Shown here piece after piece: positions 2,755-34,426 of a stretch of 64,000 nucleotides of DNA (positions are counted from its first letter, which is position 1; each line of letters starts with the position of its first letter). The notes beneath the pieces were generated by a model. It saw only the letters and a list, made by a program, of their open reading frames with translations. It was not told the DNA's origin and did not search any database. This DNA comes from an uncultured Alistipes sp. (GTDB taxonomy: Bacteria; Bacteroidota; Bacteroidia; Bacteroidales; Rikenellaceae): NCBI GenBank assembly GCA_900541585.1, contig UQKD01000007.1:56257-120256 (forward strand), written 5' to 3'. The translations under genes and the position numbers were made by a program.

Positions 2755-5331
2755 ATGGCAAAAAAAGCATATTCTCCCGACCCGAAAGCGGAAACCATCA
2801 AGCGCATCCAGCGCACGGAGGCTTACGCCGAGAAAGTGAGGCAGCTATTCGCCGCAACGGTGAATGAAATCCTCGCTCTCAACAAATCCGTGCCGACGCT
2901 GGACGAGGGCGTCATGTACTCTTTCGACGGGGATAATATGCGAATCCAAAAGAAAGTCGAGGCATTGCTCCGGCAACTGCATTCGGTGGTAACGACGGCG
3001 ATCCGCAAGGGCATTACCCTCGAATGGGAACAGGCAAACGTCGAATGCGACAAGCTCGTAGCCTCCTGCTTCGGCAAAAAGGTGTTATCCAGCCCGGAGT
3101 TCAGCGCATGGAACAACCGCAATACTGCGGCGATGAACGCCTTTGCCGACCGGACGGAGGATGGCCTCAATCTGTCGGGCCGGATATGGCAGTCGGTTCA
3201 GCAGCTCCGCGATGAAATGGAGATCGCCATGACCGTCGCCATCGGCGAGGGAGATTCGGCGCAGTCCATATCCCGCAAAGTCCGGCAATACCTGAATGAC
3301 CCTGATCTGATGTTCCGCCGTTTCCGCTTCAAGAAAGGCGAAGACGAGCAGGGCAAGCCTATCTATGGGCGGAAGTGGAAAAAGCGCATCAAGGACGAGA
3401 AAACGGGCAAATACCGATGGATCGACTATGAACGCAAGGACTACAAAACCGGATCGGGCGTTTACAAGTCCTCGGCCAAGAATGCCATGCGCGTTGCGAG
3501 GTCGGAAACGAACATCGCATACCGCCGCGCCGACAATGAGCGGTGGCAGCAGATGGATTTCGTCCTCGGCCAGCGTATCCAGCTATCGAAGAACCACCCG
3601 AAGAAAGACATCTGCGACAAGCTGGCAGGCGACTATCCAAAGGATTTCGTATTCGATGGCTGGCATGTGCAATGCTTCTGCTTCGCAACGCCTATCCTGA
3701 TCGACGAGGACGAGATGGCGAAAGTTACGGAGGCATTCCTCAAAGGCGAGAAATACACTCCGCGAGGTAGGCAGATCACCGAATATCCGGCCAATTTCAA
3801 GAAATGGGTGCGGGACAACAAGGAGAATATCCTTGCATCCCGCAATAGAGGCACGGAGCCCTACTTTATTCGCAATAACTCTGCGGCGATTGATGAGATA
3901 CTCAATCCGAAACCGAAAGAGCTTACAATCGCAGAAAAGGCGGCATTACGCCATGAGGCCCGAACACCCGAACAAGAGGCGGCGATTCGGAATGCGTGGG
4001 CCGAACGTCAGAAGAAGCACCAGCAGATCAAGACGGCGGCGAACAATATTGCCAAAGTCGCCGGGGATTATGGCGAGGTCGATTATTCCGCCCTGCAAAA
4101 GTACATCGATGCTGGCGATCTATCAGCCATGCAGACCGAGACCAAGAAAGTCGCGCAGGCCATCCTCGCCGCCAAGAAAGCGGAGCAGGCTCTCGCCGAC
4201 ATTATCCCCAATGCCCACTCGTGGCATAAGCAGTTCACGATGGATCAACTGCACGGGGTGTATAATGCCGTCAAATCGAAGATCGAGAGCTGGTCGGGCT
4301 TATCCCTCGAACAGCAGGCGAAAAAGCTGCATTTCGAGGCTTTCGACTTCCTCGGCGGCAACATGAAAGGCGTTCAGGAAAAGTATCCGACATGGAAAGT
4401 ATCGCAGGAAGCGTACATCAAGGAGCTTAACGCCGTCAATTACAAGATTTCGCTCAAACAAGCGATGGCAGATGTCTCACTTGTCGAACAATGGGCCGAA
4501 GCACATCCGAAGAGCCTCAATGTCGCAAAACTCCTTGCCGATGCAAAGCATGCCATCGCCAACGACGAGGATATTGCGGTTATCAAGCAAAAGGTTTCGC
4601 TCGCGGTAGCCGAAAAGCAGAAACGCGAGATGGAGCAGGCACGGCGCGACGCGAAAAAGGGATTCAAATCTCTCACCTTGCCAAATATCAGCAAGGCAGA
4701 GATAAAGCAACTTCTCGATCAATATGAATCCGAGGATTTTGAAGATGCGGATGCCCGATTGCGCTCAATGACCGGGAGTATATGGAAAAGCCTGACGAAA
4801 GAGGAGCGGATCATCCTGACGAAGTACACGCAGACTTACAGCTATCTGAATGAGCCGTTGCGAGGACAGACCTATTACGGGGCACGAGGCGGCGATGAAT
4901 TTGAACACGACCTGCCTATCCTAACGAGGGCACTTGAAAAGTTCTCCATGCCTCAAAATACCGTCGTCCGACGCGGCGTCGGCAGTTTCGAGATCAACGA
5001 ACTCGGATACGGCCTCGGAGAGCTGAAAATCGGCGATGTGTTCGTCGATAAAGGCTTCCTCTCGACCGCCATCCATAGGGCGGGAGGATTCCATGATACA
5101 TACAATTTGGTGATCGTGGTTCCCAAAGGTGCAAAGGGCGTTTACGCCGAGCCGTTTTCTCATTATACCGACTATAACAAGTTCGAGTATGACGGCAAAA
5201 TATGGGACGGTGAATCGGTTGAATCGGTAAGATCGGAAATGGAGTGGATCGGACAGCGAGGCAGCCAATTCCGTGTGCTCAAAAAGCAGGGCAGAACGAT
5301 CTACCTGCAAATGATCGGACAGCTCAAATAG
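2755..5331 (+). CDS. Mu gpF-like head morphogenesis protein fused to an ADP-ribosyltransferase domain
   Basis: 858 residues. Residues about 150-330 carry the gpF/SPP1 gp7 minor head region (SAKNAMRVARSETNIAYRRA, then DICDKLAGDYP and WHVQCFCFATPIL). Residues about 380-690 are helical linker. The C-terminal 160 residues look like a VIP2/exoenzyme-type ADP-ribosyltransferase: arginine in TVVRRG (R739/R740), the STS-like strand FLSTA (S770-T771) and the ExE motif E828-M-E830 followed by QRGSQFRVL. This R-S-E triad is the catalytic signature, so the domain may be active. Since gp7-type proteins can enter the cell with the DNA, the domain could act on the host at infection (inference). A glycohydrolase of opposite activity is encoded 0.4 kb away on the other strand. 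Confidence 0.87.
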   Translation: MAKKAYSPDPKAETIKRIQRTEAYAEKVRQLFAATVNEILALNKSVPTLDEGVMYSFDGDNMRIQKKVEALLRQLHSVVTTAIRKGITLEWEQANVECDKLVASCFGKKVLSSPEFSAWNNRNTAAMNAFADRTEDGLNLSGRIWQSVQQLRDEMEIAMTVAIGEGDSAQSISRKVRQYLNDPDLMFRRFRFKKGEDEQGKPIYGRKWKKRIKDEKTGKYRWIDYERKDYKTGSGVYKSSAKNAMRVARSETNIAYRRADNERWQQMDFVLGQRIQLSKNHPKKDICDKLAGDYPKDFVFDGWHVQCFCFATPILIDEDEMAKVTEAFLKGEKYTPRGRQITEYPANFKKWVRDNKENILASRNRGTEPYFIRNNSAAIDEILNPKPKELTIAEKAALRHEARTPEQEAAIRNAWAERQKKHQQIKTAANNIAKVAGDYGEVDYSALQKYIDAGDLSAMQTETKKVAQAILAAKKAEQALADIIPNAHSWHKQFTMDQLHGVYNAVKSKIESWSGLSLEQQAKKLHFEAFDFLGGNMKGVQEKYPTWKVSQEAYIKELNAVNYKISLKQAMADVSLVEQWAEAHPKSLNVAKLLADAKHAIANDEDIAVIKQKVSLAVAEKQKREMEQARRDAKKGFKSLTLPNISKAEIKQLLDQYESEDFEDADARLRSMTGSIWKSLTKEERIILTKYTQTYSYLNEPLRGQTYYGARGGDEFEHDLPILTRALEKFSMPQNTVVRRGVGSFEINELGYGLGELKIGDVFVDKGFLSTAIHRAGGFHDTYNLVIVVPKGAKGVYAEPFSHYTDYNKFEYDGKIWDGESVESVRSEMEWIGQRGSQFRVLKKQGRTIYLQMIGQLK

Positions 5332-5356: not shown

Positions 5357-5693
5357 ACTTGTAGTATCGCTTGTAGAATTTCTTGAACGGCTCGACGCAA
5401 TCCATCATCGACGACATATTGCCCTGTGCATAGCGATTAAACAGCATGGATTTCAAGGTAATCGGCACTCCGTCCGCATTCTCGAACTCTGCCAATCCGA
5501 CCGCAGTATATTCGTCGAGGTTTCGACTTTCAGAGGCATTCGCATCGCCTCTTGCGATGACCGCCATAGTATCGTGAACCCATGTCCGCTCGTAAAGCCA
5601 GAGCATCGTTTTGTTTTGGTCTTTGCCCTTATATGGGTTCTCCCGCTCGCCTTTATAGTAGCGGCAGTATTGCAGTAAATCGGATTCTTTCAT
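5355..5693 (-). CDS. Hypothetical phage protein, 112 aa
   Basis: Not recognised. Soluble, rich in Tyr, Lys and acidic residues (N-terminus MKESDLLQYCRYYKGERENP, C-terminus FKKFYKRYYK). No signal peptide or membrane segment. Its ATG overlaps the last base of the stop codon of the ADP-ribosylglycohydrolase gene, so it is the last gene of that leftward operon and is probably translated by coupling. A role alongside the glycohydrolase is possible but unsupported beyond the linkage. Confidence 0.7.
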   Translation of the reverse strand: MKESDLLQYCRYYKGERENPYKGKDQNKTMLWLYERTWVHDTMAVIARGDANASESRNLDEYTAVGLAEFENADGVPITLKSMLFNRYAQGNMSSMMDCVEPFKKFYKRYYK

Positions 5694-6469
5694 CAGTACG
5701 TTGCATAAAATTTCTTAATAACATTCTGCATATCTTTCGGCAGATAGCTCATCGCGGTCTCTATGGTCGTAAGATCGACACCGAAACGGGCCTTTGCGAG
5801 CGATCCGACGATAGCTCCGAGCGTATCGCTGTCGCCTCCGTAGAGAATGGCCTTGCGGATGGCATCCTCGAATGAATCGCTCTCTTTGATGATATGAAAG
5901 GCCAGCGGGACGCACCCCTGACACGTTTCGTCGAACTTGCCCCTCGGAATGAGATTCTGCTCCCAGTCCGCGCCGTAGAACATCCCGACCATTTCGAGGG
6001 CCTGATTGAGGGCCAAAACATCGCAGAAAGGATCGCAACTCCGCATCAGGTAAATCGCCCGTGCAACCACCATCGCCCCGATGATTCCGTCGGGATGGTC
6101 GTGCGTGATCTTGGCCGTCTCCATCGCCTGCCGGATCACCTCTTGCTCCGTATCGAACGCATAGGCGACAGGGCTGACCCGCATCGCCGCGCCATTGCCG
6201 AAGCTGTTGTACGGCTGCGGATCGGGAGAATTGAGCCACAAGGCGAAAGACGCTCCGTATGCACCCATCGGATTGGGGTATTTCCTACACCAACGTAGGA
6301 TGCTCGCCCGATAGTCCTCCCCACGCAAAATTGCATCGGCAATCGCCACCGTGCAGATCGTGTCGTCGGTAAAACTGCACTCCGGGGAGAACAGCGCGAA
6401 ATTCCCATCCCGCGTATTGTTGAACTCGAATCGAGAGCCTACTATGTCACCAATTATCGCACCTATCAT
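5693..6469 (-). CDS. ADP-ribosylglycohydrolase (DraG/ARH family)
   Basis: 258 residues, close to the usual length of single-domain ADP-ribosylglycohydrolases, which remove ADP-ribose from proteins or small molecules using a dinuclear Mg centre. All family landmarks are present: MIGAIIGDIVGSRFE at the start, TDDT (D35, D36), GNGAAMRVSP (91-100), ITHDHPDGI (121-129) and GGDSDTLGAI (211-220) with the metal-binding aspartates. No signal peptide, so cytoplasmic. It sits in a tight four-gene leftward operon inside the phage head region, beside a rightward gene whose product ends in an ADP-ribosyltransferase domain. It may reverse that activity or counter host ADP-ribosylating defence toxins; both are inference. 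Confidence 0.93.
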   Translation of the reverse strand: MIGAIIGDIVGSRFEFNNTRDGNFALFSPECSFTDDTICTVAIADAILRGEDYRASILRWCRKYPNPMGAYGASFALWLNSPDPQPYNSFGNGAAMRVSPVAYAFDTEQEVIRQAMETAKITHDHPDGIIGAMVVARAIYLMRSCDPFCDVLALNQALEMVGMFYGADWEQNLIPRGKFDETCQGCVPLAFHIIKESDSFEDAIRKAILYGGDSDTLGAIVGSLAKARFGVDLTTIETAMSYLPKDMQNVIKKFYATY

Positions 6470-14657: not shown

Positions 14658-14742
14658 GGAGGGTTGGCAGAGTGGCTGAATGTACCTCACCGCTAACGAG
14701 GCAAGCCGTCGGGCTTCGGGGGTTCGAATCCTCCACCCTCCG
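14658..14742 (+). tRNA. tRNA-Ser (anticodon GCU) inside the tail operon
   Basis: Perfect 7-bp acceptor stem (GGAGGGT / ACCCTCC), D-arm GCAGAGTGGCTGAATGT, anticodon loop CCGCTAA (GCU at positions 34-36, reading AGC/AGU), a 5-bp long variable arm AAGCC-GTCG-GGCTT typical of serine tRNAs, T-arm GGGGG-TTCGAAT-CCTCC, and discriminator G. The CCA end is not encoded. Oddities are C instead of U at position 33 and an A-C mismatch at 31-39, so it may be a degenerating or specialised copy. It lies between the tube and chaperone genes in the same orientation, so it would be cut out of the late mRNA. Confidence 0.85.
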
Positions 14743-14753
14743 CAATTTTATAC

Positions 14754-19843: not shown

Positions 19844-20332
19844 ATGAAAGAACTCATCAGACGAATACAGAGGGAATGGAGGGCGGCCAAAGATGCCGCC
19901 CAAGCCCAATGCGCCGACAGCGGGCAGCAGGAAATGGCGGCCAAGCTCGAAGCCTGCGACATGTTCAAGGGCGACGAGACATTGGAGGAGCTGATCGGGC
20001 TGATGTTCTCCCCGCGAGGGGTCGAATTTATGACAACCTACAACTTCCCCGACATCGCCACGTTCAGGCGGTTCAAGAAATACCGTCCGGAGCGATACGG
20101 GGTATATATCGACAGCGGCAAAATCTCGCTTTCAGAGGCCCGAAAAATCTTTTTGATAGGAGATACCGCCGCAGAGCTGAAATACCGTCAAACCGCCGGA
20201 AATCGGCTATTCCTGATGTGCGGGGCGAAAGTCTCCGTCGCGGCATCGGGATATGCGGTCGTCAAGGTCGAAAAGGATAAGGATTCCGAGGTGAGTTACA
20301 TCGTTCAGGACAATGCGAAAATCTTATGGTAG
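19844..20332 (+). CDS. Phage tail-associated hypothetical protein, 162 aa
   Basis: Not assigned. N-terminal helix (MKELIRRIQREWRAAKDAAQ) followed by a middle region FKGDETLEELIGLMFSPRGV and a beta-rich C-terminal half (RYGVYIDSGKISLSEARKIF). It lies 1 bp after the tape measure stop and overlaps the distal tail gene by 7 bp, so it should be a tail-tip or tail-assembly component. Similar-sized genes occur here in Bacteroidales phages. Confidence 0.65.
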   Translation: MKELIRRIQREWRAAKDAAQAQCADSGQQEMAAKLEACDMFKGDETLEELIGLMFSPRGVEFMTTYNFPDIATFRRFKKYRPERYGVYIDSGKISLSEARKIFLIGDTAAELKYRQTAGNRLFLMCGAKVSVAASGYAVVKVEKDKDSEVSYIVQDNAKILW

Positions 20333-21300
20333 GCAAGCTGTTCATAGACGGGCTGGATGCGTTCAGTGAATACGGCATCTTCGTAGAGCAGTACGGGTAC
20401 AAGGCACTCGTACAGATGCCGTCATTCAAAAAGCTGAACAGCACCGAATGGCCCGAATATGACGGCGAGGAAACAGACCTCTCGAATCCGATCCTCGACA
20501 GCAAGACATTCTCGATACCGTTTTGCATCACCGATATTTTGAGCGCGAGCGATCTATTCGAGGTGCTTTCCGATGGGGCGTATCATATCTTCGACTTCGC
20601 CGAACTCGGCAAGTCCTACAAACTGCGGCTTCTGACCAATCCCGCATTGTCCGCAAAAATCCAGCTCGGAAAAATCACGCTGAATTTCGCCGATGACTTC
20701 CCGCCTGTCTATCCGACCGATGAAACGGACATCGAGAGCCTGAACGAGTACAATACGCTACTGAATCAGGCGCCCTATGCGGCAGCTCCGGCGGGTTTCA
20801 AACAGAACGGCTACGAGCTGGATGATGTCGATTTTTCCCGCTTCGGGGTCTATGTCCTCGACGGCACGGATCGGAATATTCAGAAAGCCCCGAACGTCCG
20901 CGAGAATCTGAAAGTCGATGTAACCAATCGGCCCGGAGTAAGCTATGACGGAGAATCGGTTTTCTACAAGGCGAAAGACGTTGCGATGAAGCTCTTTATC
21001 TATGCCGATAGCATCGCTCAATTTTGGGAACGCTGGTATGCGCTTTTCACCGCCCTGCTGAAACCCGAACTGCGTAAATTATACAACGACACCTCTTTGG
21101 AGGAGTATAATTGCTATTACAAAAGTAATTCGGTAACGCGATTCGATATTCGACGAAATGGGCGGGTGTGGTGCGAGTTCACCGTAACCCTGACCTTTCC
21201 CGATTCGCGGCCCGACGGTAATTACTGCGTATTGGCGACCGAGGATAAGGAGGCAGTGATAACCGAGCCGGAAGAGGGCCTCATCGTATTTAGAATTTAA
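20326..21300 (+). CDS. Distal tail-like protein with internal duplication
   Basis: 324 residues. Two related modules are visible: GLDAFSEYGIFVEQYGYKAL near residue 9 and DVDFSRFGVYVLDGTDRNIQ near residue 166, each followed by strands and a conserved F/Y-x-L pattern (SKTFSIPFCITD; KDVAMKLFIYAD). This two-copy layout suits a distal tail (Dit)-like ring protein at the tail tip. Position after the tape measure and before fibre genes supports it. It overlaps the previous gene by 7 bp. Confidence 0.6.
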   Translation: MVGKLFIDGLDAFSEYGIFVEQYGYKALVQMPSFKKLNSTEWPEYDGEETDLSNPILDSKTFSIPFCITDILSASDLFEVLSDGAYHIFDFAELGKSYKLRLLTNPALSAKIQLGKITLNFADDFPPVYPTDETDIESLNEYNTLLNQAPYAAAPAGFKQNGYELDDVDFSRFGVYVLDGTDRNIQKAPNVRENLKVDVTNRPGVSYDGESVFYKAKDVAMKLFIYADSIAQFWERWYALFTALLKPELRKLYNDTSLEEYNCYYKSNSVTRFDIRRNGRVWCEFTVTLTFPDSRPDGNYCVLATEDKEAVITEPEEGLIVFRI

Positions 21301-21312
21301 CTCTACAAGGAT

Positions 21313-21975
21313 ATGATAAAGAAGAAAATATCGGAACTCCCCGAATGCACCTCATTCAAAGGGCTGTGGACTATCGGCGTCGATATATTCAACAAGAGCG
21401 TCAAGGTGTCGCTCGAATATATCCAGTCGGTCGTCGAGGGGATGAAGTCGGCGACGAAAAATGCGACCGACGCCACCGGCGCGGCAAACTCCGCAGCGCA
21501 GACGGCCGACAATGCCGCGCAGAGGGCGCAGGCGGCGACGACCGCTGCCAATACCGCGACCACGAACGCCAGCAACGCCACCGCCGCCGCGATTGAGGCG
21601 AAAGAGGATTGCGAGGAGGTGATCGCCGCCGCTGCGGAATTGGAGCCGCTGAACCTCGTACCTACGGCGATGACGGTAGAATACCCCTCGCGTCTGCTGG
21701 TCGGCAATATGGCGGAGAATTTCATCCGCGCAACGCTCGCTCCGGCCAGCGTCAAGCCGAATGTACTGTTCCTCGGCGACGATAAGGCCGTATCGGTAAC
21801 TCCCGACGGGCGTATCACGATCCTCGCCGCCGGGGTCAGCATCATCCATGTCATCCCGACCTGCAACGTAGCCCTCTACAAGACGATTCAGATCAAGGTC
21901 TCGAAGCCTACGGTCAGGTTGGTAACACTCTCGTCGATCCGCCTCACGGCAAACGGTAATTTCAGGTTCAATTAA
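21313..21975 (+). CDS. Tail fibre-like protein with Ala/Thr coiled coil and Ig-like domain
   Basis: 220 residues. N-terminal part MIKKKISELPECTSFKGLWT, then an Ala/Thr/Asn-rich heptad-like stalk (about 50-110; for example QTADNAAQRAQAATTAANTA) that should form a trimeric coiled coil, then a beta domain (VSVTPDGRITILAAGVSIIH) resembling bacterial Ig-like group 2 folds used for glycan binding. It likely lies at the tail tip as a side fibre. The repeated stalk makes this gene a candidate for length variation between strains. Confidence 0.6.
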   Translation: MIKKKISELPECTSFKGLWTIGVDIFNKSVKVSLEYIQSVVEGMKSATKNATDATGAANSAAQTADNAAQRAQAATTAANTATTNASNATAAAIEAKEDCEEVIAAAAELEPLNLVPTAMTVEYPSRLLVGNMAENFIRATLAPASVKPNVLFLGDDKAVSVTPDGRITILAAGVSIIHVIPTCNVALYKTIQIKVSKPTVRLVTLSSIRLTANGNFRFN

Positions 21976-21990
21976 AAACAACATCAAGCT

Positions 21991-22308
21991 ATGGCAAGAC
22001 AAGGTTACATCAGCGAATTTATGAATGGCGGGCGCATCCTCTCGCATGGCAAGATCGAGAGCCTCGCAGACGGTTTCAGCCTGCCGAATGACGCACTGTT
22101 CTCGCTCTACATCAGGCCCAAATACAGCAGTTCCACCGTGGACACCGTATTGAGCGTGAAATGCTATCAGGACGACGAATTTTCCGACGCTCCGGTAGTG
22201 CTCAACGATTGGTCGCCGATGGCAATCAAGGCCATCGCACCGAATGCGGATTTTCTCAACACTCACGACCTCTATTGGGGAGCTGGGACTTACGTCGAAA
22301 AGGTATGA
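21991..22308 (+). CDS. Phage hypothetical structural protein, 105 aa
   Basis: Not recognised. Beta-rich (FSLYIRPKYSSSTVDTVLSV) with a Gly-rich start (MARQGYISEFMNGGRILSHG). Placed between two fibre genes, so it is probably part of the tail tip or fibre. Its stop overlaps the ATG of the following 50-residue gene (ATGA). Confidence 0.6.
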   Translation: MARQGYISEFMNGGRILSHGKIESLADGFSLPNDALFSLYIRPKYSSSTVDTVLSVKCYQDDEFSDAPVVLNDWSPMAIKAIAPNADFLNTHDLYWGAGTYVEKV

Positions 22309-22457
22309 TCGTCTCGGTTTTCATCTCCCTATCGCGGCGGCTGCGCCAATGGGTGGCATCCCGTAGGCAAAAGAAAATGCGGCTGAATACCGCATCGTCG
22401 GTGATGTTCATCGCATCGAAAGGAAAAACGGTTTTCAAATTCTTAAACGACAAATAG
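22305..22457 (+). CDS. Very small basic protein, 50 aa
   Basis: Too short for usual gene callers. It starts at the ATG that overlaps the preceding stop (ATGA) and ends 2 bp before the DGR target gene. Sequence features are a hydrophobic N-terminus MIVSVFISLSRRLRQWVASR, then many Arg/Lys. It could be a membrane-associated peptide or only serve to couple translation into the target gene. Function unknown. Confidence 0.5.
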   Translation: MIVSVFISLSRRLRQWVASRRQKKMRLNTASSVMFIASKGKTVFKFLNDK

Positions 22458-22459
22458 CT

Positions 22460-23884
22460 ATGACAGCAGAACAAGAAGCAATCCTCGAACAGATTATCGA
22501 GGCTTTTCAGAATGGCAAGCGATTGAGCGACTTGCCCGATGTATCGGGAACCAACCCGTTCAACCTCATTTGCGAGGTATTGGAGGACGGCGAGAGCAAA
22601 AAGGCCGCGCTCGCGACGCTCCTGCCGTACATGGAGGAGGAATGCAGCTACGGCATCGAGTTCGACACCGCCGTATCCTCGCCTGCCTGCACCCGTATCG
22701 GCAACCTCTCCCTGCACAAGAGCCTGCCGATCCACAGCCGGATGAAAGGCTGCCTGCTCAACGACGACGGCGAGGTAGTGGAATACCTCAATCCGTCCAA
22801 CTGGACGGGGCAGACGCGCGACGGCTCGCGGGGGCAGGTCATGGTCGAACTTCCCATGCACTACCGCAAATTCGAGACGGACGGCACGAAACGGCGGGTG
22901 CGTATCAGCGAGTACCCTCTCCCCGGCTATCATCTTGTCGGGAAAAGATACGTTTCGGCGTATCAGGCTACCATACAGCGCAGCACGACGACCCTCTGCT
23001 CGGTCGTGAACATGGATGCCGATTACCGCGGCGGCGGGAACAATACGGCGTATGACGGAACCTATCGCACGCTCCTCGGACGCCCGGCAACAACGACCTC
23101 CCGCACCAATTTCCGCAATTACGCCCGCAAGCGCAAGGCCGGTTCGACGGAATGGAACTGCATGACCTACGACATCCAAAAAGAGCTGTATTGGCTCTTC
23201 GTTATCGAATATGCTACGCTCAACTCGCAGGCGACATTCAACGCTCAAAAAGACAGCAACGGCTATGCACAGGGCGGTCTCGGAGCGGGTGTAACGAACA
23301 TGTCCGATTGGAGCGGATTCAACGGCTATTATCCGTTCGTGCCGTGCGGCCATACCGACGAACTCGGAAATGGCACGGGCGAGGTAGCATACCCCGTCAT
23401 CAATGAGGACGGATCGACCCGATGCACGGTCATGGTTCCGCGCTATCGGGGCGTCGAGAATCCTTTCGGTCATGTTTGGCAATGGACGGACGGCATCAAC
23501 ATCCGGATCAGCCCGACCGAGGAGAACGGCGGCGACGGGTTGAGCAAGGTATTCGTCTGCACCGATCCGGCCAAATTTTCGGATAGCGGCTACGACGGCT
23601 ACGCTCATGTAGGCAACGAGGCCCGCGCAGAGGGGTATGTCAAAGAGGTGATTTTCGGCGAGGGAGGAGAGATCATGCCCTCCGTCGTAGGAGGCGGTTC
23701 TTCGACCTATTTTTGCGACTACCACTATACCAACATCCCGACGACCGAAGCCTTGCGCGGTGTCCTGTTCGGCGGTAATGCGTCTAACGGCGCGGATGCC
23801 GGATTTGCGTCTGCGAATGCGAATAACGCGCCCTCGTATACGTATGCGAATGTCGGGTCTCGCCTTTGCTTTATCCCCGCATAA
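22460..23884 (+). CDS. DGR target protein: tail tip protein with C-type-lectin-like variable domain
   Basis: 474 residues. The N-terminal helical segment (MTAEQEAILEQIIEAFQNGK) is followed by a long domain whose VENPFGHVWQWTDGINIRIS resembles the formylglycine-generating-enzyme/CLec fold seen in Mtd-like and TvpA-like DGR targets. Residues 433-469 are encoded by the variable repeat and end ANVGSRLCFIPA. Ten variable positions fall in or beside Asn/Ser/Tyr/Thr-type codons, giving a binding surface that can be rewritten. The cassette order target, small gene, template repeat, reverse transcriptase supports the role. It likely binds the bacterial surface receptor at the tail tip. Nothing suggests an inactive copy. 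Confidence 0.9.
   Translation: MTAEQEAILEQIIEAFQNGKRLSDLPDVSGTNPFNLICEVLEDGESKKAALATLLPYMEEECSYGIEFDTAVSSPACTRIGNLSLHKSLPIHSRMKGCLLNDDGEVVEYLNPSNWTGQTRDGSRGQVMVELPMHYRKFETDGTKRRVRISEYPLPGYHLVGKRYVSAYQATIQRSTTTLCSVVNMDADYRGGGNNTAYDGTYRTLLGRPATTTSRTNFRNYARKRKAGSTEWNCMTYDIQKELYWLFVIEYATLNSQATFNAQKDSNGYAQGGLGAGVTNMSDWSGFNGYYPFVPCGHTDELGNGTGEVAYPVINEDGSTRCTVMVPRYRGVENPFGHVWQWTDGINIRISPTEENGGDGLSKVFVCTDPAKFSDSGYDGYAHVGNEARAEGYVKEVIFGEGGEIMPSVVGGGSSTYFCDYHYTNIPTTEALRGVLFGGNASNGADAGFASANANNAPSYTYANVGSRLCFIPA
23757..23864 (+). repeat. DGR variable repeat (VR)
   Basis: 108 bp at the 3' end of the target gene, 20 bp before its stop codon. It aligns without gaps to the template repeat at 24309-24416 (offset exactly 552). 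There are 10 mismatches and all 10 are at TR adenines (5 A to G, 3 A to T, 2 A to C, by my alignment). The 26 bp at the left end and the final few bases are identical, as expected for flanks of homing. Confidence 0.95.
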
Positions 23885-23891
23885 CGGATAA
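23871..23891 (+). promoter_or_regulatory. Hairpin just downstream of VR (possible DGR homing element)
   Basis: TTATCC pairs with GGATAA around a 9-nt loop (CCGCATAAC), beginning 6 bp after the VR end and spanning the stop codon of the target gene. DNA hairpins directly after VR stimulate retrohoming in the Bordetella phage DGR; the equivalent role here is inferred. A 6-bp AT/GC-mixed stem is modest evidence. Confidence 0.45.
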
Positions 23892-23934
23892 CGCCACAGA
23901 AAACACGCTCGGCCAATAATTAAACGCTACGACA

Positions 23935-24282
23935 ATGGAGAATAACCACAATCCGATGGAGGATGACGGCTCGCTGGATTTCCTGAAAATCCCCGCCGAT
24001 GAAACCAACAAGCATTTCAACTGCCCCGAAACGACGCAACAGAAGTTGATTAACCTCACCTTTTGGGTCTGCGACTACATCGAGGGCGTGAAAACGAAGT
24101 TCGGATCAGATCGGACGCTCGTCAAGATCAAGATGAATCGGGACGACCCCGATCGGGATGCACGGAAATTCTTTACCAATTCGCGGGAAATCAAATACGT
24201 CCTCGCCAAGATTCGGGAGATGGACAAATTCCCGCGACGGGTAACGATGCGGGCATCGGGAACGCGGTACTACTTGGAGTAA
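23935..24282 (+). CDS. Conserved hypothetical DGR-linked protein, 115 aa
   Basis: Lies between target gene and TR, the place where an avd accessory gene is often found. It does not look like Avd, which is an all-helical basic bundle: this protein is mixed (MENNHNPMEDDGSLDFLKIP, then DDPDRDARKFFTNSREIKYV, ending KFPRRVTMRASGTRYYLE). The alternating helix and strand near the C-terminus suggests a small winged or ferredoxin-like fold. Avd-like function is possible but unproven; it may instead be an independent tail-linked gene. Confidence 0.6.
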   Translation: MENNHNPMEDDGSLDFLKIPADETNKHFNCPETTQQKLINLTFWVCDYIEGVKTKFGSDRTLVKIKMNRDDPDRDARKFFTNSREIKYVLAKIREMDKFPRRVTMRASGTRYYLE

Positions 24283-24308
24283 TGGATGTATAAAGGTTGG
24301 TTACTCTT

Positions 24309-24416
24309 GCGGTGTCCTGTTCGGCGGTAATGCGAATAACAGCGCGAATGCCGGATTTGCGTATGCGAATACGAATAACACGCCCTCGAATACGAATGCG
24401 AATGTCAGGTCTCGCC
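24309..24416 (+). repeat. DGR template repeat (TR)
   Basis: 108 bp located 26 bp after the 115-residue gene and 148 bp before the reverse transcriptase start, in the same direction as VR. It contains 27 adenines by my count, mainly AAT/AAC, ACG, AGC and AGG codons (Asn, Thr, Ser, Arg), which give wide amino acid choice when adenines are randomised. Left and right ends are identical to VR. It is in frame with an open frame leading to the RT, but the RT start is later. Confidence 0.95.
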
Positions 24417-24563
24417 AATGATTTTCAGAAAGGTAAAAACATAAATTTTGAGAGTAACGACCCTGCCTCTCGGCAAAAAACATCACCTCAAAAAGGAGTT
24501 AGTAGGCGGTTTCGGGCCTCCCGAACTGTCGAACGCCCCGAATATGAAAAGCAAAGCGTCAAA

Positions 24564-25601
24564 ATGAAGCGCATAGGAAATTTATACGAAAAGATCATAT
24601 CGCTGGATAATCTTCGTCTCGCCGATGAAAAGGCAAGACGCGGAAAACTCCGTACATATGGTGTCAAAGTTCATGACAAGAATCGTGAAGCAAATATCCT
24701 TGCCCTGCATGAAACGCTGAAAAATCGTACATTCAAGAACTCCGAATACAGCACGTTCACGATCTATGAGCCGAAAGAGAGGATCATATTTCGATTGCCG
24801 TATTACCCCGACCGCATTCTGCATCATGCGATAATGAATATCCTCGAACCGATATGGGTTTCGGTCTTCACGAAAGACACATATAGCTGCATAAAAGGCC
24901 GAGGTATTCACGGAGCAATGCGGAATGTCAAGAGGGCCATCAAAGACCGGGAAAACGCCCGATATTGCCTCAAAATCGACATCCGAAAGTTTTACCCGTC
25001 GATAGACCACGACGTATTGAAAGCCGTCATCCGCCGCAAAATCAAATGCAAGGATACGCTCGCCCTGCTCGATACGATCATCGATAGCACCGACGGCGTG
25101 CCTATCGGCAACTATTTGAGCCAATACTTCGCAAATCTGATGCTCGCCTACTTCGATCATTGGATCAAGGAGGAGAAGCGGGTGCGGTACTATTTCCGAT
25201 ATGCCGACGACATGGTATTTCTCGCCTCCACGAAAGAGGAGTTGCACATCCTGTTGGCCGACATCAAGAAGTATCTCGCGGCCTTAAAACTGACACTGAA
25301 AGGCAACGAGCAGATATTTCCTATCGCCGAGAACCGGGCGGACAAGCACGGGCGCGGCCTCGATTTCGTCGGATTCGTGTTTTATCACGCTCAAACGCTC
25401 ATGCGGAAAGCCATCAAGCAGAATTTCTGCCGTGCTGCCGCGCGATTGAATAAAAAGCTCAATATCAGCGCAAAAGACTACAAGCAGCGATTATGCAGTT
25501 GGTTCGGATGGGCAAAAGTATCAAACTCAAAACATTTACTAAAAACAATCATCAAACCACAGTTCTATGAAACGTGCATATTACGACGCAATGCCGCCTA
25601 A
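24564..25601 (+). CDS. DGR reverse transcriptase
   Basis: 345 residues, start at ATG 24564 (MKRIGNLYEKIISLDNLRLA); an open frame upstream covers TR and is not coding. RT motifs are: RIIFRLPYYPDRILHHAIMN, LKIDIRKFYPSIDHDVLK (catalytic Asp), PIGNYLSQYFANLML with G182-N-Y-L-S186-Q187 (the GxxxSQ form typical of DGR RTs, in place of QGxxxSP), and FRYADDMVFLAS with Y213-A-D-D216. It lacks maturase or endonuclease domains. It copies TR RNA into cDNA with adenine-specific errors that then replace VR. It overlaps the next gene by 35 bp. Confidence 0.95.
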   Translation: MKRIGNLYEKIISLDNLRLADEKARRGKLRTYGVKVHDKNREANILALHETLKNRTFKNSEYSTFTIYEPKERIIFRLPYYPDRILHHAIMNILEPIWVSVFTKDTYSCIKGRGIHGAMRNVKRAIKDRENARYCLKIDIRKFYPSIDHDVLKAVIRRKIKCKDTLALLDTIIDSTDGVPIGNYLSQYFANLMLAYFDHWIKEEKRVRYYFRYADDMVFLASTKEELHILLADIKKYLAALKLTLKGNEQIFPIAENRADKHGRGLDFVGFVFYHAQTLMRKAIKQNFCRAAARLNKKLNISAKDYKQRLCSWFGWAKVSNSKHLLKTIIKPQFYETCILRRNAA

Positions 25602-25986
25602 ATTCGAGGCGGTAGGCAACGGCAGCTACATCTACCGTTGGGACATTCAGGAAGAGGCCGCACCGCAGCAGCAGGCCATGACGGAGAACGAAGATCAGCC
25701 CGCCACCGAAATTTCACGCACGCAGTATTCCTGCTATGAGGTAATCGTATGGGCTTCCGTATCGAGTAACAAGATCACCGAGGCCGTCATCGGTCAGATG
25801 TGGGAAGCGAACTACGAGCAGAAACTCATCAACGAGTACAATGCCGCCAATCTCGGCGTATATGGCGGCTCCAAGACGAGCGACGAGGCAAAGGCAAAGA
25901 TCGCCTCCTACAAGGCATTTCTCGCAGCGAGAGCCACGTTGAAAGCCCAAATCGACGCAGATTGCGCCGAACTGAACATCGAATAA
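25567..25986 (+). CDS. Hypothetical tail-associated protein, 139 aa
   Basis: Overlaps the end of the RT gene by 35 bp in another frame. MKRAYYDAMPPKFEAVGNGS, YIYRWDIQEE, then YSCYEVIVWASVSSNKITEA and a helical Ala/Lys-rich end (KAKIASYKAFLAARATLKAQ). Tail fibre assembly proteins show similar aromatic N-terminus and helical C-terminus, so a fibre chaperone role is a weak guess. I do not recognise the family. Confidence 0.6.
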   Translation: MKRAYYDAMPPKFEAVGNGSYIYRWDIQEEAAPQQQAMTENEDQPATEISRTQYSCYEVIVWASVSSNKITEAVIGQMWEANYEQKLINEYNAANLGVYGGSKTSDEAKAKIASYKAFLAARATLKAQIDADCAELNIE

Positions 25987-25995
25987 AATCAGATC

Positions 25996-28900
25996 ATGCT
26001 GACCCTGCATTTCAATAACACGACATTGGACGTACAGGAGAGCGATAGCAGCTACCGCTCTCGCTCCCTCATGTCCAAGCCGCAACTCGTCCTGAAATTC
26101 TCCCTATCGGAATTTGTCGAAATTCCGGTCGGAGCATGGTGCGAGTATCAAGGCGTGAAATATAAACTCGGCTCGCCGGAGAACATCAAGAAGAACGGAA
26201 CCCGCAATATCGAATACACGCTCACCCTCGGAACATTGGAGGACAACATGAGCCTGTATAAGATGCGTAATCCCGTCGATAAACGCCTCAAATGGTCGAT
26301 GTGCGCCAAGCCCCACGAACTCGTCGAAGCTATCGTCTGGAATCTCAACCAGCGCGACGGGGCCGGAGTTTGGAAAGTCGGCGAATGTCTCGATGCGGCG
26401 GAGCAGACGGTCGAGTTCAATCACACCTACGTCGATGCTGCATTGCAGGATGTCGCAAACAAATTCGAGACCGAGTGGGAAATCAACGACTACACGATCT
26501 CGCTGCACAAAGTCGAGTATTTCAAGGACGATCCCCTGCCGCTCGCATACGGCAAGGGCAACGGCTTCGAGCCGGGTGTCGGGCGCACCACGCAGAGCGA
26601 TGAGCTGCCGATCAAGCGGCTCTATGTTCAGGGCGGAGACCGCAATATCGACCGCTCGAAATACGGCTCGGCGGAATTGCTGTTGCCGAAGTCGCAGATG
26701 CTCGTTTACGAGGGCCGCACCTATCAATCCGACGCGGAGGGGTATTCCATCGAGCGCATCGACAAGGTTTCCGATGCCGTCAAGGAGGACAGCCTCGATT
26801 GCTCCGAGATATACCCGTCCCGCGAGGGAACGGTATCGGCGGTCGAGTGTATTGACGCCGGAAAGAATTTCTACGACATCATCGACAGCTCCATCCCTGC
26901 CGATCTGAACTTCAACGATTATGTCATCGAGGGCGAGACGGCGACGATCATCTTCCAAAAGGGGATGCTCGCGGGCGACGACAAGCAGTTCGAGTTCAAA
27001 TACAACCACTCGGAACGCCGCTTTGAACTCGTGCCGCAGGAGATCGACGGGGTTACGATGCCGAACGAAACATTCAAGCCCGCCGTCGGCGATACCTACG
27101 CCGTTTTCGGGATCATGCTGCCGGACGCCTATATCTGCAACAATGCGGATAAGACGGGGGCGTCATGGGATATGTTCCGCGAAGCGGCCCGCAAGCTCTA
27201 TGAGAACGAAGATCAGAAATTCACCTTTACCGGCACTCTGCAAGGGCTGTGGGCGAAAAAGAATTGGCTCCGTGTCGGCGGTCGGTTGAAAGTCGGCGGG
27301 TATGTCCTGTTCTCCGATGAGCAGTTCGCCCCCGATGGCCTCCCGATCCGCATCACGGGTATCAAGGAATTTCTCACCTCGCCGTATGCTCCCGTTCTCG
27401 AAATCTCCAACTCGGTTTCGGGCAAGAGCGTATCGTCGCAGCTTCGGGAGATCGGCCAAAACGAGGTGGCGACGGATAACAGCATCCGCTATGCCGTAAG
27501 CTATACCAAGCGTCGGTTCCGCGACGTCCGGGAGACGATGGCGATGTTGGAGGATTCGATGCTCGACAACTTCACGAACTCCATCAGCCCGCTGACCGTG
27601 CAGACGATGATGATGCTCGTCGGGGACGAAAGTCTGCAATTCCGGTTCGTCGCCAGCAAGACCGACCTCACGGCGGTAAGCGACGGCATCACCTACGACA
27701 ATGCGGCGAAGCAGTTGCATATCCCGCACGGATTCATCCAGCACATGACGCTCGGCATCGGCACGATCTCGTCCTCTCATGCCGATTCGGAGTACAAGGT
27801 TTGGGAGATGAACGAATACCTTTCGCCGTACCTCGACAACGGCGACAAGAAGTATTATCTCTATGCCAAAGTCAGCCGCACGGACACCGCCGCAAAGGGC
27901 GATTTCCTGCTCTCTGACCGGGCGATCAAGATGACCGACATTGCAGGGTATTATCATCTGCTGGTCGGCATTCTGAACAGCGAATACGACGGCGAACGGA
28001 GCTATGTTTCGCTCTACGGGTTTTCGGAGATTCTGCCCGGTCGCATCACGACGGATCGCATAGCGACCTCGGACGGCAAGAGCTTCATCGACTTTTTGAG
28101 CAATGCGCTCCACTTGGGAAATGATAGCAGTTATTTAGATTGGAATAACATCGTCGCCGACACACTATCCACGATCAACATGCTGCTGGAAAATGCCACG
28201 ATAAAAACCAAATTGAGCGTTCTCGGCGAAGCATTGATCGCAGGGTTCTATTTCTCGGACGAGATTATCAAATCTACGATGAAATCGGGCAATGACCCCG
28301 CTATGTATTTGAATGGCAAAACCGGTAAGATTCACCTCAAATCGACAACGACCGGAGGTGATTATTCTCTTGATTACGAAAATTCGGAGATTGATATAGA
28401 TGCAGGCGCAGGTGAAGTATCGGCAAGAAATAGTAACGGAGTAGCATATCTGTCTGCAAGTGGCGTCTTCTGCAATAATGCGAAAACAAATGCGATGCCG
28501 TCCTCTACTGGTTATACGCATTACGGTTCAATCGTCGGGCTTGGATATGGCGACGTGGACTATACGTGGGCATTCGACAAAGAAAGCACGTTAATTGCCG
28601 GAGTATATGGACGGGCCAGCAATACGGGTACAGCCCCCGCATACGGCGGATATTTCCGTGATTTGCTGGCCGCCGGACTGATCTTCAATCCAAAATATAT
28701 CGGAGATACCGACACCTATTATTTGTCTGATGGATACACTCAATGCCTCGGAATGACAAATTCAGGGAAAACGGCGACGGTGTATCTTCCGACGGGAGGA
28801 ATGGAAGGTAAAGTTATCTTCGCAAAACAGATAGGTCAAGGACAAATGCGTTTTCGGGCGCGTTCAGGACAATACATATACGATGACATCAGCGTAAACG

Positions 28901-29007
28901 ACTACTACGATGTGCCGGAGGGATGGGAAGCAAAATTCACCTTTGCAATCTTTTACCTGAATAACGTAAAAAAAGAGGCATGGCTTGTAAGTCGCTGGAA
29001 ATTCTAA
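25996..29007 (+). CDS. Tail tip/baseplate protein (prophage tail endopeptidase-like)
   Basis: 1003 residues. The N-terminal third resembles the gp27/gp44-like hub of prophage tail proteins (FVEIPVGAWCEYQGVKYKLG, SWDMFREAARKLYENEDQKF, KNWLRVGGRLKVGGYVLFSD). A helical linker (about 480-530) is followed by a fibre-like region with Gly/Asp-rich repeats (SKTDLTAVSDGITYDNAAKQ) and a C-terminal beta-rich domain (GMEGKVIFAKQIGQGQMRFR). The composition is that of a tail-associated lysin or host-binding protein at the tail tip. The last third is less GC-rich than the rest, which could mean a replaced receptor-binding end (impression only). Confidence 0.75.
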   Translation: MLTLHFNNTTLDVQESDSSYRSRSLMSKPQLVLKFSLSEFVEIPVGAWCEYQGVKYKLGSPENIKKNGTRNIEYTLTLGTLEDNMSLYKMRNPVDKRLKWSMCAKPHELVEAIVWNLNQRDGAGVWKVGECLDAAEQTVEFNHTYVDAALQDVANKFETEWEINDYTISLHKVEYFKDDPLPLAYGKGNGFEPGVGRTTQSDELPIKRLYVQGGDRNIDRSKYGSAELLLPKSQMLVYEGRTYQSDAEGYSIERIDKVSDAVKEDSLDCSEIYPSREGTVSAVECIDAGKNFYDIIDSSIPADLNFNDYVIEGETATIIFQKGMLAGDDKQFEFKYNHSERRFELVPQEIDGVTMPNETFKPAVGDTYAVFGIMLPDAYICNNADKTGASWDMFREAARKLYENEDQKFTFTGTLQGLWAKKNWLRVGGRLKVGGYVLFSDEQFAPDGLPIRITGIKEFLTSPYAPVLEISNSVSGKSVSSQLREIGQNEVATDNSIRYAVSYTKRRFRDVRETMAMLEDSMLDNFTNSISPLTVQTMMMLVGDESLQFRFVASKTDLTAVSDGITYDNAAKQLHIPHGFIQHMTLGIGTISSSHADSEYKVWEMNEYLSPYLDNGDKKYYLYAKVSRTDTAAKGDFLLSDRAIKMTDIAGYYHLLVGILNSEYDGERSYVSLYGFSEILPGRITTDRIATSDGKSFIDFLSNALHLGNDSSYLDWNNIVADTLSTINMLLENATIKTKLSVLGEALIAGFYFSDEIIKSTMKSGNDPAMYLNGKTGKIHLKSTTTGGDYSLDYENSEIDIDAGAGEVSARNSNGVAYLSASGVFCNNAKTNAMPSSTGYTHYGSIVGLGYGDVDYTWAFDKESTLIAGVYGRASNTGTAPAYGGYFRDLLAAGLIFNPKYIGDTDTYYLSDGYTQCLGMTNSGKTATVYLPTGGMEGKVIFAKQIGQGQMRFRARSGQYIYDDISVNDYYDVPEGWEAKFTFAIFYLNNVKKEAWLVSRWKF

Positions 29008-29011
29008 AATA

Positions 29012-29473
29012 TTGACAACCATGACAGAATACGGATATATCAATGATGGAGGCTACCTCGTATCAAGATTCATCGAGAAACAAGTCGAAAAATATAAGGA
29101 CACGGACGGCAAGATCAAAATGCGAGTTATCTCTATTGAAATGCAGATTGAGAAGTTGGCGCAACATGGATGGAAGCCAGTCGATCCGATTGACGAAAGC
29201 GCAATGCAATGTGCCGACGGGTACACCGTGAGAATAACTCCATACGATGCCGGAAACCGCATATCGTATAAATACGAAACAGTATTTGACACTCAAAAGG
29301 TATTCAGAGAAATCCAATCGCTCAAAGATCAGCTCACCAGCAGCGATTATAAAGTCATCAAATGCTACGAGGCGTCTTTGACACGGGCGGCACTCCCCTA
29401 CGACATTGACGAACTACATTCTCAAAGGCAGGCGATAAGAAACCGTATCAATGAGTTAGAGGCGACAATATAA
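29012..29473 (+). CDS. Hypothetical phage protein, 153 aa (tail-linked)
   Basis: Not recognised. 4 bp after the tail-tip gene. Mixed alpha/beta (MTTMTEYGYINDGGYLVSRF) with a helical C-terminal tail (LHSQRQAIRNRINELEATI) that could be a small coiled coil. Possibly a tail-tip chaperone or an attachment to the tail-tip protein. It is the last gene of the morphogenesis operon before the lysis promoter. Confidence 0.6.
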   Translation: MTTMTEYGYINDGGYLVSRFIEKQVEKYKDTDGKIKMRVISIEMQIEKLAQHGWKPVDPIDESAMQCADGYTVRITPYDAGNRISYKYETVFDTQKVFREIQSLKDQLTSSDYKVIKCYEASLTRAALPYDIDELHSQRQAIRNRINELEATI

Positions 29474-29494
29474 TTTTTTATTCGCCCAAATAAG

Positions 29495-29523
29495 TACCTA
29501 TTAGGTATTATTTACTACTTTTG
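29495..29523 (+). promoter_or_regulatory. Candidate late promoter of the lysis cassette (palindrome plus -7 box)
   Basis: Perfect 13-bp palindrome TACCTATTAGGTA (29495-29507), then 8 bp (TTATTTAC), then TACTTTTG (29516-29523), a -7 box. Spacing matches the morphogenesis promoter at 10060-10088 exactly. Transcription would start near 29530, a dozen bases before the ATG at 29543. Confidence 0.65.
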
Positions 29524-29542
29524 TCATAAATCTAAACCTGTT

Positions 29543-30217
29543 ATGGAACAGAAAATTGAAAAGGGAATCGGGTGGCTCGAAAGGCTGCTCAAAATGGAGG
29601 AAAAATACGGGTTCTTCCGCTTTCTGCGGGTACTCCTGCTTTTGCTCCTCACGGGATTTGTAATCCTCACAATCACCAATCCGCGCTATGTGCTGGATAA
29701 GATCGAATCCATCCAAACAGCGCAGCACGACGAATCCGTGGTAAAACGCATTCAGGCGGATGCCGATATTCGCCTGATGCTTCATCATCTGCTCCACACG
29801 CTGAATGCCGACCGCGCATGGCTTATCGAATTGCACAACGGCAGCAAAAACCTATCGTCGGGGTTGCCGTTCCTCTATGGCGATATGCGTATTGAAGTCG
29901 TGGCCGACAGTATTAGCAATGTAGATGATGAATATATCAACTTCCAATTATCGAAATATCCGTTTATCGGAAAACTATTTGATGACGGCTTTTATTGGGG
30001 ATCGGTGGATGCGATCCGAGAAATCGACGAACGAATGTATTTCAAATTCAAGTCTAATTCCGTGAATGAGGTTGCCATACTCGCGCTATATGCCGGAGAG
30101 CGGCCTCTCGGAGTAATCGGGCTGTCGTTCTGCAATGACAAGCACATGGACGCTGCGGCCGTCGGGAAAGCCATCCGCAAATGCGGCATTCAGGTAGCAA
30201 CATTACTATCTAACTAA
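29543..30217 (+). CDS. Membrane-anchored protein with GAF-like domain (lysis region)
   Basis: 224 residues. One N-terminal transmembrane segment (FLRVLLLLLLTGFVILTITN, about 28-47) is preceded by an amphipathic helix, followed by a soluble domain (DADIRLMLHHLLHTLNADRA, WLIELHNGSKNLSSGLPFLY, YAGERPLGVIGLSFCND) with GAF-like pattern. The head of the lysis cassette suggests a regulator or membrane-anchored lysis factor; a pinholin-type role cannot be shown. First gene after a promoter shared in layout with the morphogenesis operon. Confidence 0.55.
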   Translation: MEQKIEKGIGWLERLLKMEEKYGFFRFLRVLLLLLLTGFVILTITNPRYVLDKIESIQTAQHDESVVKRIQADADIRLMLHHLLHTLNADRAWLIELHNGSKNLSSGLPFLYGDMRIEVVADSISNVDDEYINFQLSKYPFIGKLFDDGFYWGSVDAIREIDERMYFKFKSNSVNEVAILALYAGERPLGVIGLSFCNDKHMDAAAVGKAIRKCGIQVATLLSN

Positions 30218-31984: not shown

Positions 31985-32842
31985 ATGAGCGAAAAGAAAC
32001 CAACAAGGCAGGCGGAGATTGTATTTGCCGCCATGAAAGCAATCGAGGCCAACGGCGGCGAAATGAGGATTTCGGATATATACGAAACCCTCGCATCATC
32101 GTTCCCGCTGACCGATTATGAAAAAGAGGAGACCAAGAGCGGGGTCATCCGCTGGAAAGCGTATCTCAACTTCTATTCGATAGAGGTCGGCAAGGTCGGG
32201 TATCTCGTCAAAAAGAGCGGGATTTGGCATCTGACGGAAGAAGGAGCGAAAGCTCTTGCCGCCGGAGCCGGAGAGTTCTTTGCCGATTTTCACGGCAAGT
32301 TTTCCAAGATACAGAAAGAACACGCGGTATCTGTCATCGAGGATAACGCGGATCAGCCCGATGATTTGGATATGCTGCAAGGTCAGGCATCGAAAGGCAT
32401 TCGGGAGTATATCATCAAAAAGAACCCCTACGAGTTTCAGGATTTGGTCGCCGCCCTACTACGGGCAATGGGCTACTATACGCCGTTCATCGCCCCGAAA
32501 GGTAAGGATGGCGGTGTCGATATTATCGCCTACCGAGACCCGCTCGGCACGACCGCCCCGCAGTTGAAAGTGCAGGTCAAGCATTATCCCACCTCGGCGA
32601 TCTCCGTCGATGTCGTCCGTAGTCTGCTGGGGGTTCTCGTCAAGGAAGGCGAAGTCGGCCTGCTGGTTACATCGGGGACATTCACCAGCGAATCCAAGAA
32701 AGAGGCCCGCAACGGGCATCGCTGCCTGCGCCTGATCGACATCGACGAGTTCATTGACCTATGGATTCGCTACTACGACCGCATGAGCGAGGAGGACAAA
32801 GCTCTGCTCCCGATTATTCCTGTCTATTTCTTGAAAGCATAA
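31985..32842 (+). CDS. Mrr-like type IV restriction endonuclease
   Basis: 285 residues. N-terminal winged-helix Mrr_N region (RQAEIVFAAMKAIEANGGEM, DYEKEETKSGVIRWKAYLNF) followed by a Mrr_cat/restriction endonuclease-like domain: FQDLVAALLRAMGYYTPFIA, GKDGGVDIIAYRDPLG, and LKVQVKHYPTSAISVDVVRS, giving the E/D...D...QxK catalytic pattern. Mrr-type enzymes cut modified foreign DNA, so this prophage gene probably protects the lysogen against other phages. Located beyond the lysis genes near the prophage end, the usual place for accessory genes. It starts immediately after a leader hairpin that may limit translation. Confidence 0.85.
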   Translation: MSEKKPTRQAEIVFAAMKAIEANGGEMRISDIYETLASSFPLTDYEKEETKSGVIRWKAYLNFYSIEVGKVGYLVKKSGIWHLTEEGAKALAAGAGEFFADFHGKFSKIQKEHAVSVIEDNADQPDDLDMLQGQASKGIREYIIKKNPYEFQDLVAALLRAMGYYTPFIAPKGKDGGVDIIAYRDPLGTTAPQLKVQVKHYPTSAISVDVVRSLLGVLVKEGEVGLLVTSGTFTSESKKEARNGHRCLRLIDIDEFIDLWIRYYDRMSEEDKALLPIIPVYFLKA

Positions 32843-33855: not shown

Positions 33856-34426
33856 ATGGACATAAAGAGAGACAAGGACGATGCGTCTTTATGGAATCGA
33901 TTTCTCGACGGAGACCGGGAGGCTTATGCGTATATTTTCGAGAGATATGTCCGTGTGCTGTTTATGTACGGGTCCCAGTTCACCGGCGACCGGGAACTGG
34001 TAAAAGACTGCATCCAGGATGTTTTCGTCAAGATATACTCCAACCGAAGCAACCTGCGCCCTACCGACAACATCAAATACTACCTGTTCGCGGCGCTCCG
34101 CAACAGCCTCATAAACGCCCTGAAACGCGACAAAGCCCGATTCGGAGGGGGGGGGGGGTTCCGACACCGACGCAAAGGCGAAAGAGCAGGCCTGTGAGGA
34201 CGCATCCCGCATAATCGAAATCCGGGAAGAGGAGGCGATCATGCAGAACAGGGTCGCCGAAATCATGTCGGCCCTCACGCCGCAGCAAAAGCGGGCCGTG
34301 CATTACCGGTATATCGACAATCTCAGCATCAGCGAGATTTCCGACGTCATGAATATGAGTTACCAGGCTGTCCTGAACACCATCCAACGGGCTTTGAAGC
34401 GAATCCGCACAAATTATTTGAATTAA
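33856..34426 (+). pseudogene. ECF sigma factor, frame disrupted by a 12-G run (possibly phase-variable)
   Basis: Region 2 is intact (DGDREAYAYIFERYVRVLFM, DCIQDVFVKIYSNRSNLRP) in the first frame, which ends at 34197. Region 4 (ALTPQQKRAVHYRYIDNLSI, SISEISDVMNMSYQAVLNTI) continues in another frame to 34426. The break is at a run of 12 G (34147-34158). Removing one G, or adding two, fuses the two parts into one normal-length ECF sigma factor of about 190 residues. It precedes a FecR anti-sigma gene and a SusC/SusD locus, so it would be the activator of that locus. Genuine off-state, permanent mutation and assembly error remain possible. Confidence 0.8.
34147..34158 (+). repeat. Poly-G tract (12 G) in sigma factor gene
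   Basis: Twelve consecutive G between A and T. 12 G gives a truncated sigma factor (113 codons), 11 G or 14 G restores the frame. Such tracts change length by slipped-strand mispairing and are a common basis of on/off phase variation. Confidence 0.85.

Follow-up and report, generated by a model that had tools for sequence, protein, structure and literature searches.

A diversity-generating retroelement in a likely Bacteroidales prophage, with an RT-17 spacer RNA and a predicted OB-fold protein in the position of Avd

We analysed a 64,000-nucleotide stretch of DNA (hereafter the window) from an uncultured Alistipes sp., corresponding to positions 56,257 to 120,256 of the forward strand of contig UQKD01000007.1 (assembly GCA_900541585.1). 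It contains a diversity-generating retroelement (DGR) within a likely prophage. The DGR carries the RNA RT-17 between its template repeat (TR) and its reverse transcriptase (RT), and a 115-residue protein with a predicted OB fold is encoded where Avd would be expected; we consider it likely that this protein serves the RT. The pattern of differences between TR and variable repeat (VR), its recurrence in relatives, the covariation of the RNA and the genomic tie between protein and RT were read from sequences. The folds of the 115-residue protein and of the target protein come from structure prediction, and binding, role and activity are inferred. The parts of the element are as follows.

22460..23884, + strand: target gene for a 474-residue tail protein with the VR at its C-terminus (phrog_5302 tail protein, E 9.1e-142; structure model)
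23757..23864, + strand: VR, with the match to TR running on to 23872 (repeat comparison; variation at TR adenines across relatives)
23855..23872, + strand: initiation of mutagenic homing (IMH) site, the 3' end of the VR (fixed differences from TR at 23855, 23865, 23866 and 23869 in 10/10 loci)
23935..24282, + strand: 115-residue DGR partner with a predicted OB fold (phrog_19665; without a Pfam family)
24309..24416, + strand: TR, with the match running on to 24424 (IMH*; repeat comparison)
24459..24555, + strand: TR–RT spacer RNA, Rfam RF03020 (RT-17; 43.5 bits against a gathering cut-off of 40.4; covariation)
24564..25601, + strand: DGR-type RT of 345 residues with GNYLSQ and YADD motifs (PF00078, E 8.1e-20; phrog_1423, E 8.7e-128)

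The target, the 115-residue gene, TR, RT-17 and RT are thus all on one strand, between 22460 and 25601.

The 115-residue protein and its tie to the reverse transcriptase

The 115-residue protein (P0002) belongs to phrog_19665, a group annotated as function unknown, and had 441 clusters of relatives. No family was found for it in Pfam, NCBIfam, PADLOC or PDB sequence searches. The only name that recurred for its family was that of a Treponema lipoprotein family: TIGR01781 matched at E 0.013, far below its cut-off, and PF09710 matched one of 62 family members at E 8.7e-4. The predicted structure consisted mainly of beta strands (pLDDT 87) and points to an OB fold. Its nearest folds by VIA included several single-stranded DNA-binding proteins, and the three best matches in BFVD came from viruses and bore the names reverse transcriptase or intron-encoded protein. 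The family is mostly basic, with a positive net charge in 55 of 62 proteins.

An RT search supplied the relatives of the element: the 80 top-ranking among 446 from viruses, the 80 top-ranking among 112 from genomes, and six places in genome G001. An OB profile, seeded from relatives of the 115-residue protein and iterated on the fetched loci, matched 155 of the 163 records with this RT type, window included; these exclude four of the 167 records, which are other RT places in G001, and they hold at least one duplicate, as L001 and L087 are apparently one contig, and many viral contigs are near-copies. All 158 matches were on the strand of the RT, 63 upstream, 93 downstream and 2 in frame with it; in L002, on the minus strand, the OB gene also lay upstream. 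Seven of the eight records without a match were cut on one side, L057 being the exception. Since the profile was built from DGR loci, exclusivity was tested on genomes instead. Profile A1 found three places in 198 genomes of the same class, each beside an RT match. The wider profile A3 found nine places in eight of 395 genomes (at most 12 candidates scored per genome). Eight of these lay at most 1 kb from an RT match or were fused to one, and the ninth was a 35-column match at E 4e-4. The family was present at 8 of the 14 RT places in these 395 genomes, and at 7 of 8 where RT identity was at least 59%. In-frame fusions of RT and OB domain were found in L134, L151, hankyphage p00, G103 and G224, and the family also accompanied RTs in contigs labelled Flavobacterium, Pedobacter and Dyadobacter. 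In L022, two OB-family genes of different subfamilies flanked the RT (3352-3735 and 5396-5707). The 115-residue gene, which the original prediction had listed without recognising its significance, is most likely a DGR partner other than Avd, with an inferred biochemical role.

The identification of this gene as avd was rejected on the basis of profile searches and a profile comparison. PF05635 (Avd) had no match in the 115-residue protein. Avd profiles, for which four phage proteins and the longest frames in 20 PF05635-matching stretches served as seeds, had none in the window or the 166 other fetched records, and hhalign gave a probability of 0.6% for the 115-residue profile against Avd. The mainly beta model is also unlike the helix bundle of Avd, as far as the prediction goes. 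In 18 phage loci, the Avd profiles matched five (four were their own seeds, and L203 was independent) and the OB profile four (Versailles only at E 3.9e-5), with both families together in none. Neither family was found in 9 of the 18 phage RT loci (L187, L190-L194, L197, L201 and L204); in L190, L191 and L193 the standard code puts stops inside the RT, and an OB gene there may be missed. The RT of crAssphage LMMB carried roughly 90 additional residues at the end. PF05635 genes were common elsewhere, occurring in 17 of 25 such genomes or records, so the host could still supply Avd in trans; in G001, no PF05635 gene was found on either DGR contig.

Repeats, spacer RNA and reverse transcriptase

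TR and VR aligned over 108 bp without gaps, and all 10 differences were at TR adenines (5 A to G, 3 A to T, 2 A to C), which on recomputation agreed with the original prediction, as did the order of target, 115-residue gene, TR and RT and the lengths of 474 and 115 residues. With 27 adenines among the 108 TR bases, 10/10 differences at A would be expected by chance with a probability of ~2e-7, and a chance origin of the repeat was ruled out on this ground. The pair was the longest direct repeat in 20000-30000 among the 20 of 24 repeat families listed. The match extended to 116 bp, with three extra differences (23865, 23866 and 23869), likewise at TR adenines. The VR is in frame with the target gene, and 26 of the 27 TR adenines fall at codon position 1 or 2 of the VR and one at position 3. 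The locus is a genuine DGR of a known kind, and the overall interpretation originally given to it is supported.

It had been proposed that VR should vary at TR adenines while TR stays constant, and this held in the closest loci and in a column comparison of 10 loci. All VR differences in L087 (14/14) and L088 (16/16) were at adenines of the window TR, with one TR difference each, and L089 had 14 of 15 VR differences at such positions with three TR differences. More diverged loci gained changes at other bases (14/30 VR differences at window TR adenines in L011, 14/28 in L018). The TR/VR differences at 23855, 23865, 23866 and 23869 were identical in the window and nine relatives and, judged from this alignment, are the expected mark of IMH and IMH*. 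With 23855 fixed in 10/10 loci, one of the ten differences belongs to IMH/IMH*, and the other nine look mutagenic. At six further non-A columns, TR and VR shared the same lineage-specific base in the same loci; such changes in step are hard to explain unless TR is copied into VR.

The repeat scan, filtered at 75% A, gave pairs in 113 of 167 records, 17 of which were compared with the window, and its count of 1611/1653 rests on this pre-selection. In the unfiltered pass, 1792 of 2261 mismatches were at A, 94 of 130 pairs had at least 75% A, and 7 loci gave no repeat. Of the 36 lower pairs, 14 came from loci where the filtered scan had given an A-biased pair; we think that the script matched other repeats there, for example two variable repeats. 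Two variable repeats per TR, ~100 bp and ~500 bp upstream of it, were seen in L086, L126, L134, L139, L143, L152 and L163. A conserved hairpin after the VR was not found: a stem of at least 5 bp was absent in 10 of 22 loci, including L089, while the window and four close loci had a 6-bp stem and some other loci had different stems.

The spacer RNA had been overlooked in the original prediction. Besides the window, RF03020 lay between TR and RT in 12 of the 15 relatives scored; no match over the cut-off was found in L100, L112 and L117. Alignment A2, made up of 47 hand-picked spacers out of 87 distinct ones plus L137 and excluding extra-stem spacers and many distant ones, gave a three-helix structure in which 93.2% of cells were paired across the 48 spacers, compared with 79.3% after shuffling. 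Nine of 11 pairs changed on both sides, which 1 of 500 shuffles reached; pair 82-120, for example, occurred as G-C, U-A and A-U. None of 500 shuffles had as high a covariation score, and slid controls were far lower; such covariation is in keeping with a DGR spacer RNA. The structure was hand-written from column covariation (RNAalifold alone gave only 4 pairs) and was thus taken from its own test alignment; the slid control is biased in its favour for this reason. A scan of 198 genomes, in which stricter filters were used and part of the candidates were scored, found RT-17 at four places: two over the cut-off, both beside G001 RTs, and two that scored below it. Of the latter, the first was adjacent to the G103 RT, and the second, in G125, was not next to the RT of that genome. 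No match was found at the G164 RT. The spacer of the Bordetella phage BPP-1 DGR folds, recruits RT-Avd and primes cDNA synthesis from an internal adenine, according to passages of PMC12875486, and RT-17 may play a similar spacer-RNA role.

The RT contains both motifs originally reported, GNYLSQ (fitting GxxxSQ) and YADD. Its likeliest start is ATG 24564; a longer open reading frame (ORF) of 434 residues from TTG 24297 overlaps TR. The closest solved structure was 8ub7 (E 1.9e-44; the second was at 2.1e-17), which the BPP-1 RT matched end to end (E 4.5e-230). By sequence the RT appears to be of the DGR type, its clade membership resting on the motifs and on BPP-1 RT as the best match in the Protein Data Bank (PDB). 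For an RT tree, 16 too-short rows were dropped and 150 distinct rows were thinned to 115. In this tree, which has long branches and few outgroups (its non-DGR rows numbered three, one being nested), the window RT grouped with the OB-type relatives and five Avd rows formed one group (97/98). A retron or group II intron RT was rejected, given the best PDB match; NCBIfam group II, Drt and retron models matched far below their cut-offs. The nearest named relatives of the RT were metagenome-assembled genomes labelled Bacteroidales, Rikenellaceae and Alistipes. G001, the nearest genome searched, had two such DGRs (contigs C221 and C191; L001 and L002), with RTs 95% and 66% identical to that of the window.

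Target protein and prophage setting

The target had been described as a tail-tip protein with a C-type-lectin-like C-terminus. Structure prediction is in line with this description: the eight best PDB matches of the AlphaFold2 model (pLDDT 82.8, pTM 0.85; block pLDDT of 66 to 91 over the VR) were all DGR variable proteins, namely TaqVP and Mtd chains. Foldseek gave E 1.2e-6 for TaqVP (5vf4) and E 3.9e-5 for Mtd (1yu1), with modest TM-scores (0.41 for the best match). The model thus supports a C-type-lectin-like DGR variable protein. Upstream of the DGR we found matches to terminase, portal, head and tape-measure proteins, a Dit-like tail protein and small tail genes, and downstream a 1003-residue protein with a weak, below-cut-off match to Prophage_tail; the neighbouring tape-measure, Dit-like and Prophage_tail matches support the tail-tip context.

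Host-type genes for FecR, a TonB-linked receptor and SusD begin at 34488, after the phage genes, and the proposed prophage in a Bacteroidales host is accordingly likely. A 113-residue sigma-factor-like ORF (33856-34197), short for an extracytoplasmic function sigma factor, precedes this cluster, and the prophage may adjoin the gene of this ORF or sit inside it. A gene for an Mrr-type restriction endonuclease (31985-32842) lies near the probable right end of the prophage. Within the morphogenesis block there is a tRNA-Ser (gct) gene at 14658-14743. An 858-residue minor-head-type protein (2755-5331) matched an ADP-ribosyltransferase PHROG and is followed on the opposite strand by an ADP-ribosylglycohydrolase match (5693-6469).

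Proposed mechanism and comparison with known systems

We propose that the RT would be recruited by a folded transcript spanning TR and the RT-17 spacer. Synthesis of cDNA would begin at the spacer/IMH* end, with TR adenines misread, and the mutated cDNA would replace the VR, altering up to about 15 codons of the C-type-lectin-like tail protein, for which host binding is likely. The OB-fold protein would most likely bind the single-stranded nucleic acid of the reaction (cDNA or TR-RNA), as the counterpart of Avd beside the BPP-1 RT. The broader proposal has, in our estimate, an even chance of being right as a whole: that a large lineage, from gut phages to Bacteroidota chromosomes, has a second DGR architecture. 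In place of the Avd barrel it would use an OB-fold protein that binds single strands, encoded on its own or joined to the RT, and that drives retrohoming by coating or annealing the mutagenic cDNA or by shaping the template RNA RT-17.

The strongest competitor, plausible but less probable than not, is that the OB-fold protein acts on RNA, binding the RT-17 spacer or TR-RNA and building a ribonucleoprotein with the RT with no coating of cDNA. The recruitment of RT-Avd by the BPP-1 spacer RNA (passages of PMC12875486), the conservation of RT-17 in loci with the OB partner and the mostly basic charge of the family would fit this. The single-stranded DNA-binding proteins among the nearest folds speak for DNA, yet the fold cannot decide between RNA and DNA. 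The 115-residue gene could also be a hitchhiker outside DGR function, either a phage gene or a general single-stranded DNA-binding protein (SSB); it is located in a phage and its predicted fold resembles SSBs, but we regard this as unlikely, as all OB matches are on the RT strand on either side of the RT, in-frame fusions exist, the family is nearly absent outside DGR loci in the 395 sampled genomes, and it accompanies RTs in the Flavobacterium, Pedobacter and Dyadobacter contigs.

Slightly less likely still is a decayed relic in which rewriting of the VR has been lost. The RT is open with its motifs intact, the VR is in frame and the spacer RNA scores above its cut-off; moreover, VR differs from that of close relatives at A positions with TR nearly unchanged. 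Least probable, and very improbable in our view, is an ordinary BPP-1-type DGR with a strongly diverged Avd. The gene does occupy the avd position, and small ORFs of related Bacteroides phages have been called Avd (in a portion of PMC8143477) or, from isoelectric point and size, Avd-like (in a portion of PMC6199706). Against this stand the mainly beta prediction, the hhalign and PF05635 results, and the fact that Avd and OB profiles never matched the same locus. A partner of the RT with a predicted OB fold remains our preferred reading, and we regard it as likely.

The DGR of BPP-1 (mtd-avd-TR-brt) has the same order of target, small gene, TR and RT, with an RNA between TR and RT, and shares with the window the adenine-specific TR/VR differences, a related RT and the Mtd-like target model. 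It differs in the small gene, which here has a predicted OB fold and no detectable likeness to Avd. Even for BPP-1, the way in which mutated cDNA reaches VR is said to be not fully understood (passages of PMC12875486). The DGR 'lineage 3' of Wu et al. 2018 is characterised, in passages of PMC7290462, by a VR ending in SRLC, a core order of target-TR-RT and the lack of avd. The VR end and core order are common to the window DGR, which probably belongs to this lineage; whereas the lineage was described without avd, most loci of the window's type have a conserved non-Avd partner. An excerpt of PMC10053308 indicates that Wu et al. apparently tied one protein without Pfam family to DGRs. This protein may be the same as the 115-residue family, likewise without Pfam family, so the association of OB protein and RT may be partly known; if the two are one family, it is known, and the new parts would be the predicted fold, the RT fusions and the RT-17 link. 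In the open-licence literature searched, we found no report of the OB fold, the RT fusions, the genome-wide tie or the RT-17 link, and recognised no new accessory protein of DGRs, whether with an OB fold, SSB-like or of another kind.

Rfam RF03020 is entered only as 'RT-17 RNA', a small RNA, whereas here it is assigned as the TR–RT spacer of DGRs. Hankyphage p00, whose DGR is reported as active in the abstract of PMC12135933, shares with the window an OB-family domain and a DGR RT, and its TR and VR are annotated. Its OB domain, however, occupies residues 328-423 of the 435-residue open frame that also encodes the RT, a gene whose annotation says no more than reverse transcriptase. If our reading is true, a conserved and sometimes RT-fused predicted single-strand binder would be a missing DGR partner; the 'Avd-less' DGRs of gut phages would be explained, a natural one-piece RT-OB enzyme would be at hand for study, and RT-17 would gain a function. 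It is this partner protein that sets the window DGR apart from known DGRs.

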